From assembly GCA_020850595.1 (NCBI GenBank), contig JADZEK010000147.1:1-64000 (forward strand): a DNA stretch of 64,000 bases. The letters run 5' to 3'. The notes under the pieces are model-generated. The model did no database searches, was not told the origin of the DNA, and was given only the letters and a program-made list of their open reading frames with translations. The DNA comes from Anaerolineales bacterium (lineage in GTDB: Bacteria; Chloroflexota; Anaerolineae; Anaerolineales; UBA6663). A program made the position numbers and the translations under genes. Below, in pieces: positions 8,963 through 14,398 of the stretch (the first letter of the stretch is position 1; each line of letters opens with the position of its first letter).

Positions 8963-9181
8963 CCTTATTTCCGGGCGCGGGCCTGGACGAATTTGTCGCG
9001 CGGCCGAGTCGCGCCGACCGTGATTCGGTGTATAGTCGCGGCCGATCAGCACGCAGGCACCGGCTCGACACTCTTGACCGCGAGTTCGAGGCTTTCTGGA
9101 AGGCCTCGACTGCGCACAGGCGGCACGGCGCTCGCCAGCCAGCCCCCAGGCCGAACAGGGCGAACCCCAACAGGGAAGACT

Positions 9182-11461
9182 ATGACCGCCAGGAGGCCCC
9201 ACTGGGCGCGCTACGACGTCTGGGACGAGCGCCAGCTCGCCCGCGATCACTTTGCTGTTGACGATCCCGACAATGGCTTCTGCGCCGCAAACAGCCCCCA
9301 CGATCCACGCCCATCGCTCGTTATTGAGGCGGGCTGTGTGGTCGAACTGGACGGTGTGCGCGCCGCCGACTTTGATCTGATAGACGAGTTCATCGCCCGG
9401 CATTATTTCGATCTGAGCGTTGCGGCGGAGGCCATGGCGCTCGACAGCCGTGAGTTCGCGCGGCGGCTGGTGGACGTTAACCAGCCACGAGCGGAATTGG
9501 TGCGGCTCTCGGCCGGGATGACGCCGGCAAAACTGGCGGAGGTGGTGGGCTGCCTCAACACGCTGGAGTTGGCCTACGCGAACGCAAAGCTGCGCGCCCG
9601 CCGCCGGCCCAGCAACCAGGCGCACGTGACGAACGCCAAAGACGACCCGGCCCAGATGGCGGCGGACGCCGCTACCGCCGCGCTGTACGGCTTTGACGAG
9701 ATCGAGACGACCGTGCGGGTGGCACGCAACGGCCGAACCAACGCCATCGCTTGCGCTGTTGGGGCGGCTGTGGCGCGCGAGGGCGTGCTCATCCAATGCG
9801 CGTTGGAGGAGGCCGAGGAGCTGCGCATTGCGATGGCGGGCTTTACGTCGTATACCGAGACGATGTCGGTCTACGGCACCGAGGGCGCGTTTCTCGACGG
9901 CGACGATACGCCCTGGTCGAAGGCCTTGCTGACAGCGGCCTATGCTTCACGCGGGCTGAAGGCGCGCTGCACGTCCGGCTCGAGCGCCGAGCTATTGATG
10001 GGCTTTCATCAGGGCCAAAGTATGCTGTACTTGGAAGCGCGCTGCGTGTGTCTCCAGCGCGCGCTGGGCGTGCAGGGCACGCAGAACGGCGGCATAGACG
10101 GGGCGCCGCTCACGGCGTCGGTGGCGCGCGGCGGCTGGGCGCTGCTGGCGGAGAATGTGCTGGCCGCCTTGTGCGACCTGGAGTGCGCTGCGGGCAACGA
10201 CACGCGCCACAGCGAGTCGGAGATCCGCGTCGGGGCCAAGATCATGCCGGTCTTGATGGCGGGCACGGATTTCATTTGTTCGGGCTTTGGCTCGGTGGCG
10301 AAGTACGACAACTCATTCAACGCGTCGCTGTTCAACGCGGAGGAGCTGGAAGACTTCCTGGCTTTACAGCGCGAGTTCGCGGTGGAAGGCGGTCTCCAGC
10401 ACGTGCCGGAGGCGGAACTGCTGGCGGCGCGCGCCCGGGCGCTGGACGCGGTGACGGCCGTGCTGGAGGCGCTCGGCCTGGGGCGGCTGAGCGATGCGCA
10501 GAAACGCAGTGTGCTGGCGGCGCACGGCTCGGATGAGACCGACAGCTTCTCGCCGGGCGAGGTGGCCCGCATGAACGCCGTGCTGGCTGAGCAGCCGATT
10601 ACTTTTGTGGAAGTCGTGCAGGCCCTGGCAGCGCGCGGTTTCGTTGCGGAGGCCGAACGGCTGGTGGCGATGGCGCGCCAACGAGTCAGCGGCGATTACT
10701 TGCAGACGGCGGCCATCATCCAGGCAGGGCGGGTGGTGAGCGCGGTGAACGACCCAAACGACTACGCCGGCCCGGGCACGGGCTACGTCATGACGGACGA
10801 GCGGCGGCAGGCCATCAGCCGGATGCGGCGTGAGACGACGCGCGCGGGCGTACTGGCGGGTGAACAAGTCACTGCTGAACGCGAAGCCCGCCACTGGCGG
10901 CTGACGGCGGCCGGCCCGGCAACGGCTGGGAGCGACCCACGCGAGGTGGTCATCGGCCTGGGTCCGGGATTTGGGATACGGCTGCATAAGACTACCGGCG
11001 GTGTGCCGCTGCGCCAAGTGCTGGCAGCGCTGCTGGCGGGCGTGCGAGAGGGAGGCGGGGCGCCGCGGGTGGTGCGCGTGCATCACACCGCCGACACATC
11101 GTTCTTGGGGCTGACGGCGGCACGGCTGGCCGGGTCAGGCGTCGGCATCGGCATTCAGGGCAAGGGCACCACGGTGATCCACCGCGCCGACCAGGCGCCG
11201 CACATGAACCTGGAATTGTTTTCGCAGGCGCCGCTGCTGACGACCGACGACTATCGCGCCATCGGCCGCAACGCCGCCCGGCATGCACTGGGCCAAGCAC
11301 CCGCGCCGCATCTCGTGCCTTATCGCGGGCAAGCGCTGGGGGCGCAGTTCCACGTGCAGACCGCCCTGCTCTACGCGCTGGAGACGGCCCTGGTAGACCC
11401 GAGCCGCCCCCCGGAAGTGCTGGAGGTGGATTTCGATGAGCCAAACCGCGCCGCGCGCTGA
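9182..11461 (+). CDS. B12-dependent diol/glycerol dehydratase, fused large and medium subunits
   Basis: About 759 residues from the ATG at 9182 (AGGGAAG nine bases upstream; an upstream in-frame GTG at 8993 would add non-conserved sequence). Residues 1-550 match the large subunit (PduC/DhaB type: MAGFTSYTETMSVYGTE, KARCTSGSSAE, NGGIDGAPL, FICSGFGSVAKYDNSF). Residues 600-750 match the medium subunit (VVIGLGPGFGIRLHKTT, HTADTSFLGL, GIGIQGKGTTVIHR). In enterobacteria these are separate proteins. The enzyme dehydrates 1,2-diols or glycerol to aldehydes by an adenosylcobalamin radical mechanism. The small subunit follows with a 26-base overlap. No reactivase, aldehyde dehydrogenase or microcompartment shell gene is in the window, and I see no cobalamin riboswitch in 8993-9181. 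Confidence 0.9.
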   Translation: MTARRPHWARYDVWDERQLARDHFAVDDPDNGFCAANSPHDPRPSLVIEAGCVVELDGVRAADFDLIDEFIARHYFDLSVAAEAMALDSREFARRLVDVNQPRAELVRLSAGMTPAKLAEVVGCLNTLELAYANAKLRARRRPSNQAHVTNAKDDPAQMAADAATAALYGFDEIETTVRVARNGRTNAIACAVGAAVAREGVLIQCALEEAEELRIAMAGFTSYTETMSVYGTEGAFLDGDDTPWSKALLTAAYASRGLKARCTSGSSAELLMGFHQGQSMLYLEARCVCLQRALGVQGTQNGGIDGAPLTASVARGGWALLAENVLAALCDLECAAGNDTRHSESEIRVGAKIMPVLMAGTDFICSGFGSVAKYDNSFNASLFNAEELEDFLALQREFAVEGGLQHVPEAELLAARARALDAVTAVLEALGLGRLSDAQKRSVLAAHGSDETDSFSPGEVARMNAVLAEQPITFVEVVQALAARGFVAEAERLVAMARQRVSGDYLQTAAIIQAGRVVSAVNDPNDYAGPGTGYVMTDERRQAISRMRRETTRAGVLAGEQVTAEREARHWRLTAAGPATAGSDPREVVIGLGPGFGIRLHKTTGGVPLRQVLAALLAGVREGGGAPRVVRVHHTADTSFLGLTAARLAGSGVGIGIQGKGTTVIHRADQAPHMNLELFSQAPLLTTDDYRAIGRNAARHALGQAPAPHLVPYRGQALGAQFHVQTALLYALETALVDPSRPPEVLEVDFDEPNRAAR

Positions 11462-11873
11462 GCTGAATGAGATGTACCCGGTGGGCGAGAAGCAGCCCGA
11501 CCGGGTGCGCACGGTGACCGGCCGCCGACTCAGCGAGTTGACGCTGGAGCGAGTGCTGACGGGTGAGATCACGGCCGCTGACTTCGCGATCAGCGCCGAT
11601 GGACTGCGCTGGCAGGCCGAAATCGCCGAGCGCGCCGGGCGGCCGCGGCTGGCCGCCAATCTGCGGCGCGGCGCCGAGTTGGTGGGCATGCCCGAGGCCG
11701 AGGTGTTGGCGCTCTATGAGCAACTGCGGCCCGGCCGGGCGCGCCGCGCCGCCGATCTACGCGCGACGGCCGAGCGGCTGCGAGGCGAGTATGCGGCGGA
11801 AGCGGTGGCCGAGCTGTTTGAGGAGGCCGCCGCCGCTTACGAGCGCCGCGGCATCTTGTCACGCCAGGCATGA
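11436..11873 (+). CDS. diol/glycerol dehydratase small subunit
   Basis: 145 residues. Conserved small-subunit blocks: YPVGEKQPD, TVTGRRLSELTLE, DFAISADGLRWQAEIAE, GRPRLAANLRRGAEL, LYEQLRPGRA and YERRGIL at the C-terminus. It completes the dehydratase with the fused large/medium subunit. The ATG lies inside the 3' end of the upstream gene, after a strong GGAGGTGG site in that coding sequence, so the two are translationally coupled. Confidence 0.9.
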   Translation: MSQTAPRAELNEMYPVGEKQPDRVRTVTGRRLSELTLERVLTGEITAADFAISADGLRWQAEIAERAGRPRLAANLRRGAELVGMPEAEVLALYEQLRPGRARRAADLRATAERLRGEYAAEAVAELFEEAAAAYERRGILSRQA

Positions 11874-12786: not shown

Positions 12787-12815
12787 TTTACACACCCTAC
12801 CGGAGATGTTATATT
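12787..12815 (+). promoter_or_regulatory. promoter of the hisS leader
   Basis: TTTACA (12787-12792) and TATATT (12810-12815) with an ideal 17-base spacer. Transcription is predicted at about 12822-12824, which coincides with the ATG of the leader peptide, so the transcript would be leaderless. Confidence 0.7.
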
Positions 12816-12823
12816 GATGGCCG

Positions 12824-12898
12824 ATGAGCGCGCCGCGGTGTGCCCATGCCCAGCATCACCACCACCATGACCGGTATGGTTGGTTTGGCTTGGGCTGA
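12824..12898 (+). CDS. histidine-rich leader peptide upstream of hisS
   Basis: 24 codons from ATG 12824 to TGA 12896-12898. The peptide starts MSAPRCAHAQ and continues HHHHHDRYGWFGLG: five consecutive His codons (12854-12868) plus one more at 12845, six of 24 residues. There is no ribosome binding site because the promoter places the transcription start at or next to the ATG. A strong terminator follows 23 bases after the stop codon and hisS begins right after it. This is the classical layout of ribosome-stalling attenuation (as in enterobacterial hisL): shortage of charged tRNA-His would stall the ribosome at the His run and let transcription continue. An overlapping ATG at 12817 in another frame yields a Pro-rich peptide and is less likely. 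Confidence 0.7.
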   Translation: MSAPRCAHAQHHHHHDRYGWFGLG

Positions 12899-12921
12899 GC
12901 GCGGCAGAGAGACAACACTGC

Positions 12922-12958
12922 AACGGCGCGGGTCGCAAGCCCCGCGCCGTTTTTGTTT
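12922..12958 (+). terminator. attenuator terminator of hisS
   Basis: Perfect 11-base stem (AACGGCGCGGG at 12922-12932 with CCCGCGCCGTT at 12941-12951), 8-base loop and TTTTTGTTT. Because it sits between the leader peptide and the hisS start, it is best read as an attenuator. Alternative pairings exist: GCGCGG at 12899-12904 with CCGCGC at 12942-12947, and GCCGCG at 12832-12837 with CGCGGC at 12900-12905. Confidence 0.85.
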
Positions 12959-12976
12959 GCACAGGAAGCATCGGCC

Positions 12977-14245
12977 ATGAAGAACAAGATCCAGAGCGTT
13001 AAAGGCACGCGGGACTTCTACCCGGAGCAGATGCTGCTGCGCAACTGGCTGTACGGCAACATGCGCACCGCCGCGCAGTTGTTCGGCTACCAGGAGTACG
13101 ACGGCCCGTTCATCGAGACCCTGGAGCTGTACGCCGCCAAGTCAGGCGAGGAGTTGGTCAAGGAGCAGTCGTTCGTCTTCAATGACCGCGGCGGCGACCA
13201 GGTGACGCTGCGGCCGGAGTTGACGCCGTCGCTGGCGCGCATGATCGCGGCGCGCCCGGCACAGCTGCCGCGGCCTATTCGATGGTGGAGTTTTGGCCCT
13301 TTCTGGCGCTACGAGCGCCCGCAGAAGGGCCGTTCGCGCGAGTTCTTTCAGTGGAACGTTGATCTGCTGGGCGTGGACAGCCCGGCGGCCGATGCCGAAC
13401 TGGCCGCTGTGGCGGCCACCTTCTTTCGGCTGATTGGCTTCTCGGCGACAGAAATCAAGCTCCAGTTTAACAATCGGCGACTGATGGATGACGAGTTGGC
13501 CGCGCTGGGCCTGAGCGAGAACAAGAAAGCCGTCTTTCGCCTGATTGATCGGCGGGACAAGATGCCGGCTGAGGCGTGGGACCGCTATGCCGGGGAGGCA
13601 GGCGTTCGCCCGGAGCAACTGGACAGGCTGAAGACGCTGCTGGCGAATGGACAACTGTGGGAGAAGTCGGCCGAGTGCCAGGCGTTCGTCGCCGCCGCTC
13701 AGGCGCTGGGCATCGGAGACTACCTAGAGTACGATCCGACTGTCATCCGCGGGCTGGACTACTACACCGGCACCGTGCTGGAGGCGCGCGACCGCGAAGG
13801 TGAGTTCCGCGCCATCCTGGGCGGCGGGCGGTACGACAACCTGGTGGGCGAGGTGGGGGGGGAGCGCCTGCCGGGAGTGGGCTTCGCCATGGGCGATGTG
13901 GTGATCGGCCTGGTGGCGCAGAAGTACGGCAAGACGCCGCCGCTGAGTCCGTCGCCGGCACAAGTGCTCGTGACCCAATTCGACGCCGCGACCGGCGCAG
14001 AGGCGCTGCGGCTGGCGGCAGAGCTGCGCGCCGCGGGCCTGCGGGCGGAGTGGTATCCGGAGCCAGCCAAACTCGACCGCCAACTCAAGTATGCCAACGC
14101 GACGGGCGTGCGGTTCGCCGCGCTGGCGGGGCCGGACGAACTGGCCCAGGGCGAGGTGACACTGCGGGACCTGGCGGCCCGGACGCAGGAGCGCCTGCCG
14201 CGCGCGGAGGTGGCGGCACGGGTGCGGGCGCGGCTGGGTATGTGA
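12977..14245 (+). CDS. hisS: histidyl-tRNA synthetase
   Basis: About 422 residues, usual bacterial length. Class II synthetase motifs: motif 1 region KGTRDFYPEQ, motif 2 SFGPFWRYERPQKGRSREFFQ, the histidine-specific loop GLDYYTGTVLEA, motif 3 GGGRYDNL and GVGFAMGD, then a C-terminal anticodon-binding domain (VLVTQFDAATG, YANATGVRFAALAG). The start at 12977 has AGGAAG nine bases upstream; an upstream in-frame TTG falls within the terminator tail and is unlikely. Expression is probably controlled by the histidine leader and attenuator directly upstream. tRNA-His lies 78 bases downstream. Confidence 0.95.
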   Translation: MKNKIQSVKGTRDFYPEQMLLRNWLYGNMRTAAQLFGYQEYDGPFIETLELYAAKSGEELVKEQSFVFNDRGGDQVTLRPELTPSLARMIAARPAQLPRPIRWWSFGPFWRYERPQKGRSREFFQWNVDLLGVDSPAADAELAAVAATFFRLIGFSATEIKLQFNNRRLMDDELAALGLSENKKAVFRLIDRRDKMPAEAWDRYAGEAGVRPEQLDRLKTLLANGQLWEKSAECQAFVAAAQALGIGDYLEYDPTVIRGLDYYTGTVLEARDREGEFRAILGGGRYDNLVGEVGGERLPGVGFAMGDVVIGLVAQKYGKTPPLSPSPAQVLVTQFDAATGAEALRLAAELRAAGLRAEWYPEPAKLDRQLKYANATGVRFAALAGPDELAQGEVTLRDLAARTQERLPRAEVAARVRARLGM

Positions 14246-14322: not shown

Positions 14323-14398
14323 GGTGCCTGTAGCTCAATGGCAGAGTGCTGCACTGTGGATGCAGTTGTTGCGGGTTCGAGCCCCGTCAGGCACCCCA
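14323..14398 (+). tRNA. tRNA-His (GTG)
   Basis: Includes the extra G-1 (14323) that identifies tRNA-His and pairs with C73 (14395). Acceptor GTGCCTG/CAGGCAC, anticodon loop CTGTGGA with GTG, T loop TTCGAGC. The 3' CCA is encoded (14396-14398), unlike the other two tRNAs here. It is placed directly after hisS and followed by its own terminator. Confidence 0.95.

Follow-up and report, generated by a model that had tools for sequence, protein, structure and literature searches.

A leaderless histidine leader-peptide attenuator predicted upstream of hisS in Anaerolineae, with similar leaders before hisG and hisD

The histidine--tRNA ligase gene (hisS) of this Anaerolineales bacterium is very probably controlled by a ribosome-mediated transcription attenuator carried on a leaderless leader mRNA, through which the level of charged tRNA-His would set hisS expression. 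This reading was drawn from the 64,000-nucleotide stretch of DNA analysed here (the window, to which all positions refer) and from comparison with related genomes. An initial annotation had proposed that histidyl-tRNA charging controls hisS through a ribosome that initiates without a binding site, a proposal that the conservation and RNA pairings described below support. All of the sequence features of a leader-peptide attenuator that were checked, namely an open reading frame (ORF) with control codons, a terminator, an antiterminator and a 1:2 hairpin, could be assigned at this candidate locus. The source genome is a draft of 194 contigs with an estimated contamination of 9.6%, and the locus is backed by close relatives.

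The elements of the locus lie in close succession on the forward strand. The promoter was assigned by sequence match and consists of a -35 element TTTACA (12787-12792) and, after 17 nt, a -10 element TATATT (12810-12815) with a TGn at 12807-12809; it agrees with the consensus at 10 of 12 positions, and one such promoter was seen versus 0.1 expected in shuffled sequence. The leader ORF of 24 codons runs from ATG 12824 to TGA 12896-12898, is without a Shine-Dalgarno sequence and encodes the peptide MSAPRCAHAQHHHHHDRYGWFGLG. It carries five consecutive histidine control codons (CAT CAC CAC CAC CAT, 12854-12868), a run that relatives retain with synonymous codon changes, and a sixth histidine codon at 12845-12847. 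The intrinsic terminator (12922-12951, regions 3 and 4) begins 23 nt past the leader stop and has a stem of 11 pairs (12922-12932/12941-12951), a loop of 8 nt and a T-rich tail to 12958. The hisS gene (12977-14245, start ATG 12977) was identified by TIGR00442 with 357 bits (cutoff 287). In all of these elements the initial annotation, which had listed the promoter, the 24-codon ORF with its histidine run, the 11-bp terminator and hisS as the downstream gene, proved exact. A Shine-Dalgarno sequence for hisS, AGGAAG, was recognised by sequence match at 12963-12968, eight bases before the hisS ATG, indicating that hisS itself is leadered, unlike the leader ORF.

The leader ATG lies 8 nt past the -10 box, a gap that is kept in relatives. 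From this spacing we infer a 5' UTR of 0 to approximately 3 nt, so that the leader mRNA would be leaderless or near-leaderless; there is no room for a Shine-Dalgarno sequence before the ORF because the -10 box fills that place. The earlier placement of the ORF at the transcription start is thus retained in this slightly wider form, with the 5' end deduced from the promoter.

The arrangement is not due to chance. When the intergenic region was dinucleotide-shuffled 20,000 times, no ATG-initiated ORF containing HHHHH arose, and a scan of both strands found a single run of at least five consecutive histidine codons in the window. The combination of a promoter, an ATG at 5-10 nt, a short ORF and a terminator likewise occurred at one place only in the 64 kb when both strands were searched. 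The leader RNA folded with a z-score of -2.45 relative to shuffles.

Directly downstream of hisS lies a gene for tRNA-His (GTG) (14324-14398, forward strand), and the same order is found in relatives (L003, L004, L006-L010, L012, L013, L054 and L056). Several relatives, from families f1, f3 and f4, have tRNA-Arg (TCG) next after tRNA-His. If hisS and tRNA-His are co-transcribed, the attenuator would control the synthetase together with its tRNA. Upstream of hisS, at 8993-11873, a small subunit resembling that of a diol or glycerol dehydratase is encoded (11436-11873) after a long ORF that may represent the larger subunit or subunits.

Conservation was assessed in a set of 111 distinct regions upstream of hisS in Anaerolineae genomes, with hisS located by tblastn. 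Alignment of related hisS upstream regions had been suggested in the initial annotation as a check, and the short ORF, the histidine runs, a 6-10-nt gap and the terminator do recur, with 96 of the 111 hisS genes in the order being without such a leader. A short ORF with a histidine run or histidine-rich stretch was present in the other 15, its ATG lying 6-10 nt (mode 7) past a TAnnnT box in 13 of them; in 13/111 regions hisS is thus preceded by the leader, a near-zero 5' UTR and the terminator together. These 13 short-gap leaders include two from the family of the window (L004, L005), two other close relatives (L035, L036), loci of families f3 and f4 in which as many as seven histidines follow one another, and the distant loci L054 and L056. 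One genome from the family of the window (G001) has hisS and lacks the leader. Third positions vary synonymously (CAT/CAC) within the histidine runs, the -35 element stands approximately 17 nt from the -10 element in several relatives, and several promoters in relatives have 9-11 nt between -10 box and ATG, from which a 5' UTR a few nucleotides long would result. The leader elements are kept in the same and neighbouring families, the surrounding sequence having diverged. A motif around the leader stop codon (TTTGGGCTGAGCGCGG) is conserved among the hisS leaders and sits past the stop codon in L004, indicating that it is conserved as RNA and not as peptide. A search with the leader sequence profile R1 returned matches with E < 1e-7 that were exclusively hisS leaders from families f1, f3 and f4, with a clear gap before the next match; weaker matches outside these families (e.g. 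L161, L182) were mostly terminator-only or chance and were rejected. A separate, leadered His-leader type before hisS (L026, L117) has approximately 31 nt between -10 box and ATG, and a GCCGGG/CCCGGC pairing flanks its leader ORF. Upstream of its hisS, L010 (G175) carries a leaderless short ORF (TATAAT-7-ATG, MRCWTCPCPDFLYHAPADHRRGRAA) followed by a terminator-like hairpin; there is no histidine run, and this may be an attenuator that has degenerated or been re-specified.

An intrinsic terminator was found after 39/39 leaders, with energies of -7.5 to -25.5 kcal/mol and a stem beginning 20-45 nt past the stop codon. In the alignment of the hisS leaders 93% of the terminator pair cells are kept, with compensatory changes. 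According to the initial annotation, four complementary segments could form competing structures and no strong antiterminator could be fixed. Alternative pairings do exist, and two of those segments (12829-12838 and 12899-12905) belong to the predicted 1:2 hairpin and not to an antiterminator. For the latter, comparative pairing tests identified a candidate helix in which a 5' strand UGGCUUG-G-GCUG (12886-12897) pairs with the 5' arm and loop of the terminator (12924-12935), by 12886-12892 with 12929-12935 and 12894-12897 with 12924-12927, which revises the earlier view. An alternative in which GGCUUG pairs with a CAAGCC of the terminator loop was dropped, the helix with the 5' arm having the better support.

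The antiterminator was assessed in the RNA left free downstream of a ribosome at the second histidine codon, by pairing the pre-terminator stretch with the terminator 5' arm and loop. The pairing exceeded that of dinucleotide shuffles both in 26 his-operon leaders (Fisher 5e-16) and in 13 hisS leaders (Fisher 5e-4), relatedness among the sequences making both p values optimistic. In 11 hisS leaders 88% of the pair cells of the helix are kept, versus 32-39% when the register is shifted by 1-3 columns. A pair-shuffle control gave a modest result (8/500 for paired cells, 97/500 for covariation), its significance being inflated by related sequences. Taken alone, the antiterminator of the window, which contains several G-U pairs, was no better than shuffles (p = 0.40). 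Sequence support for the antiterminator is strong in the his-operon leaders and moderate in the hisS leaders when these are taken together. The 1:2 hairpin, a putative protector or pause structure, joins region 1 within the leader ORF (12832-12866) to region 2 (12873-12905), which contains the conserved motif TTTGGCTTGGGCTGAGCGCGG and, at 12886-12897, the antiterminator strand; the duplex is predicted at -40.8 kcal/mol (p = 0.01 versus shuffles). Pairing of the ORF start with region 2 also exceeded shuffles among the leaders before hisG (Fisher 4e-10) and hisS (Fisher 4e-3). When the RNA of the window was folded to the middle of the terminator 3' arm, the antiterminator formed with a ribosome stalled on the histidine codons (-27.7 kcal/mol), and the hairpin alone remained with a ribosome at the stop codon. 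In the window the terminator, once fully made, exceeds the antiterminator in stability, so that the switch must be kinetic. Taken together, the predicted 1:2, 2:3 and 3:4 pairings follow classical attenuator logic.

In the proposed switch, RNA polymerase would start at approximately 12822-12824, giving a leader mRNA that opens with, or within approximately 3 nt of, the AUG, at which a ribosome would initiate without a Shine-Dalgarno sequence. With ample His-tRNA the ribosome would reach the UGA at 12896-12898 and cover the antiterminator part of region 2 (12886-12897); since this strand spans the last codons and the stop, a ribosome finishing the ORF would mask it, the terminator at 12922-12951 would form and transcription would end before hisS. 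With scarce His-tRNA the ribosome would stall on codons 11-15 and leave region 2 free to pair with 12924-12935, allowing transcription into hisS, and the read-through mRNA would be translated from the Shine-Dalgarno sequence of hisS itself. If no ribosome were loaded, the 1:2 hairpin would sequester region 2 and the terminator would prevail.

Leaders of the same kind were found before genes of histidine biosynthesis. One weak match of the sequence profile (L179) proved on inspection to be a leaderless six-histidine leader with a terminator before hisG- and hisD-like genes. Searching for a -10 box followed after 5-10 nt by an ATG and a histidine run, with inspection of the flanks, gave approximately 25 further loci, nearly all of which precede hisG and two of which precede hisD (hisG/hisD loci overall: L261, L179, L210, L213, L215, L216, L228 and L240-L258). 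We take these genes to be hisG and hisD on the basis of their similarity to one another and to HisG and HisD and, for hisG, also of a HisG search. The genome from which the window derives has one such leader itself (L261, G000:C16:74668), in which TATCCT-8-ATG is followed by MNAITLFCAHHHHLSSQPDRKSG, a terminator and hisG. Because the pattern search presupposes the promoter spacing, 30 hisG upstream regions were also picked by HisG similarity alone. A His leader was present in 24 of these, with the ATG at 6-11 nt from the -10 box in 21 by automatic call and, after inspection of L272 and L273 (TATAGT-6-ATG), in 23/24; L294 is a leadered His leader with a 5' UTR of approximately 20-27 nt. Control scans of the hisG regions found a His leader in 4/2820 dinucleotide shuffles and in 0/141 antisense sequences. 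Leaderless His leaders before hisG or hisD are apparently more widespread in Anaerolineae than those before hisS. A tryptophan counterpart (-10 box, ATG, TGG run) was sought in 31 genomes and was not clearly above a reversed-pattern control, the two best candidates being rejected as one lay inside an ordinary gene and the other opens a longer protein.

These results make it likely that Anaerolineae possess a histidine regulon in which the same leaderless His leaders switch the hisG (sometimes hisD) operon and, in some lineages, hisS separately, so that supply and charging within one cell would respond to charged tRNA-His through ribosomes initiating without a Shine-Dalgarno sequence. A genome survey that detected leaderless genes in four Chloroflexi genomes put their share there at approximately 5% (PMC3160421), which makes the leaderless share among the His leaders (13/15 before hisS, 23/24 before hisG) notable.

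Other explanations of the locus were weighed against the leaderless attenuator. The locus could instead be a leadered histidine attenuator, with transcription starting further upstream, TATATT being fortuitous and the ORF reached by 70S scanning or through a non-canonical site. Such leaders occur, as illustrated by L026 and L117 before hisS, with 5' UTRs of approximately 25-31 nt, and by L294 before hisG. However, the 6-11-nt distance between -10 box and ATG in 13/15 hisS and 23/24 hisG leaders, the -35 element at approximately 17 nt in several of them and the -10 box occupying the site at which a Shine-Dalgarno sequence would be visible make this arrangement improbable for the window. Histidine-rich tails can bind metals, and the ORF might accordingly encode a functional histidine-rich small protein with its own terminator, unrelated to the control of hisS; two pattern matches away from his genes (L231, L259) resemble such proteins. 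However, the peptide is poorly conserved outside the histidine run, the ORF of L004 does not include the conserved TTTGGCCTGAG motif, and the partner genes, hisS, hisG and hisD, are all histidine genes, which renders a small protein very improbable.

An incidental short ORF within a T-box or another tRNA- or metabolite-sensing riboswitch would be in keeping with the T-boxes that precede hisS in many Gram-positive bacteria (PMC2965389), and is scarcely credible here: neither in the window nor in 20 related loci did a T-box covariance model match or any other riboswitch score above threshold, and the histidine run is kept as codons while the flanking RNA varies. The Rfam His_leader model gave no match either, the best leader model being Thr_leader with 19.2 bits against a threshold of 55.

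If the leaderless attenuator reading is correct, classical amino-acid attenuation extends to Chloroflexota, and leaderless mRNAs can routinely serve as its basis. When initiation is leaderless, a ribosome can load once the 5' end of the RNA emerges, which bears on transcription-translation coupling in attenuators. With hisS and his operons among their targets, the 39 natural leaders provide a ready test bed.

The literature on Chloroflexi and Anaerolineae that was searched yielded no such system; most subscription journals lay outside the search, so a prior description is possible. Leaderless leaders before synthetase genes and His leaders before a hisS paralogue have already been described. 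In Streptomyces lividans, leaderless leader peptides precede leuS, trpS, thrS, trpE and ilvB (PMC8079986), and these share with the present locus, besides the leaderless ORF that is predicted here, codons for the cognate amino acid, aminoacyl-tRNA synthetase targets and, for leuS, trpE and ilvB, a Rho-independent terminator; in contrast to the present case, the set belongs to Actinomycetota and no histidine member is listed (PMC8079986). A His leader attenuator is predicted in Bacillus before the hisS paralogue hisS* and hisZ (Naville and Gautheret 2010, PMC2965389), similarly in front of a hisS-family gene, although in Bacillota and in a report that is silent on a leaderless state; His leaders are also predicted before the his operons of other Bacillota (PMC9413887). 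The trpL leader peptide of Sinorhizobium meliloti is leaderless, its AUG being the 5' end (PMC7298713), and the ilvBNC leader of C. glutamicum is cited as lacking such a binding site for the ribosome (Morbach 2000, cited in PMC4046766). Going by these accounts, both resemble the arrangement proposed here in combining attenuation with a 5'-terminal AUG or a missing binding site, and differ from it in serving other amino acids and biosynthetic operons. The poly-Cys short ORFs of mycobacteria (Canestrari 2020) are leaderless with a single-amino-acid run as sensor, as is proposed here, whereas, according to the papers citing that work, they act on downstream translation and not by way of an intrinsic terminator. 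A close classical parallel is the enterobacterial hisL, with seven consecutive histidines in the leader of E. coli and Salmonella (PMC3896937): both systems have a run of histidine codons in a short ORF, alternative 1:2, 2:3 and 3:4 hairpins (predicted here) and an intrinsic terminator, but the leader ORF described here, unlike hisL, is without a ribosome binding site, lies at the probable start of the transcript and would control hisS.
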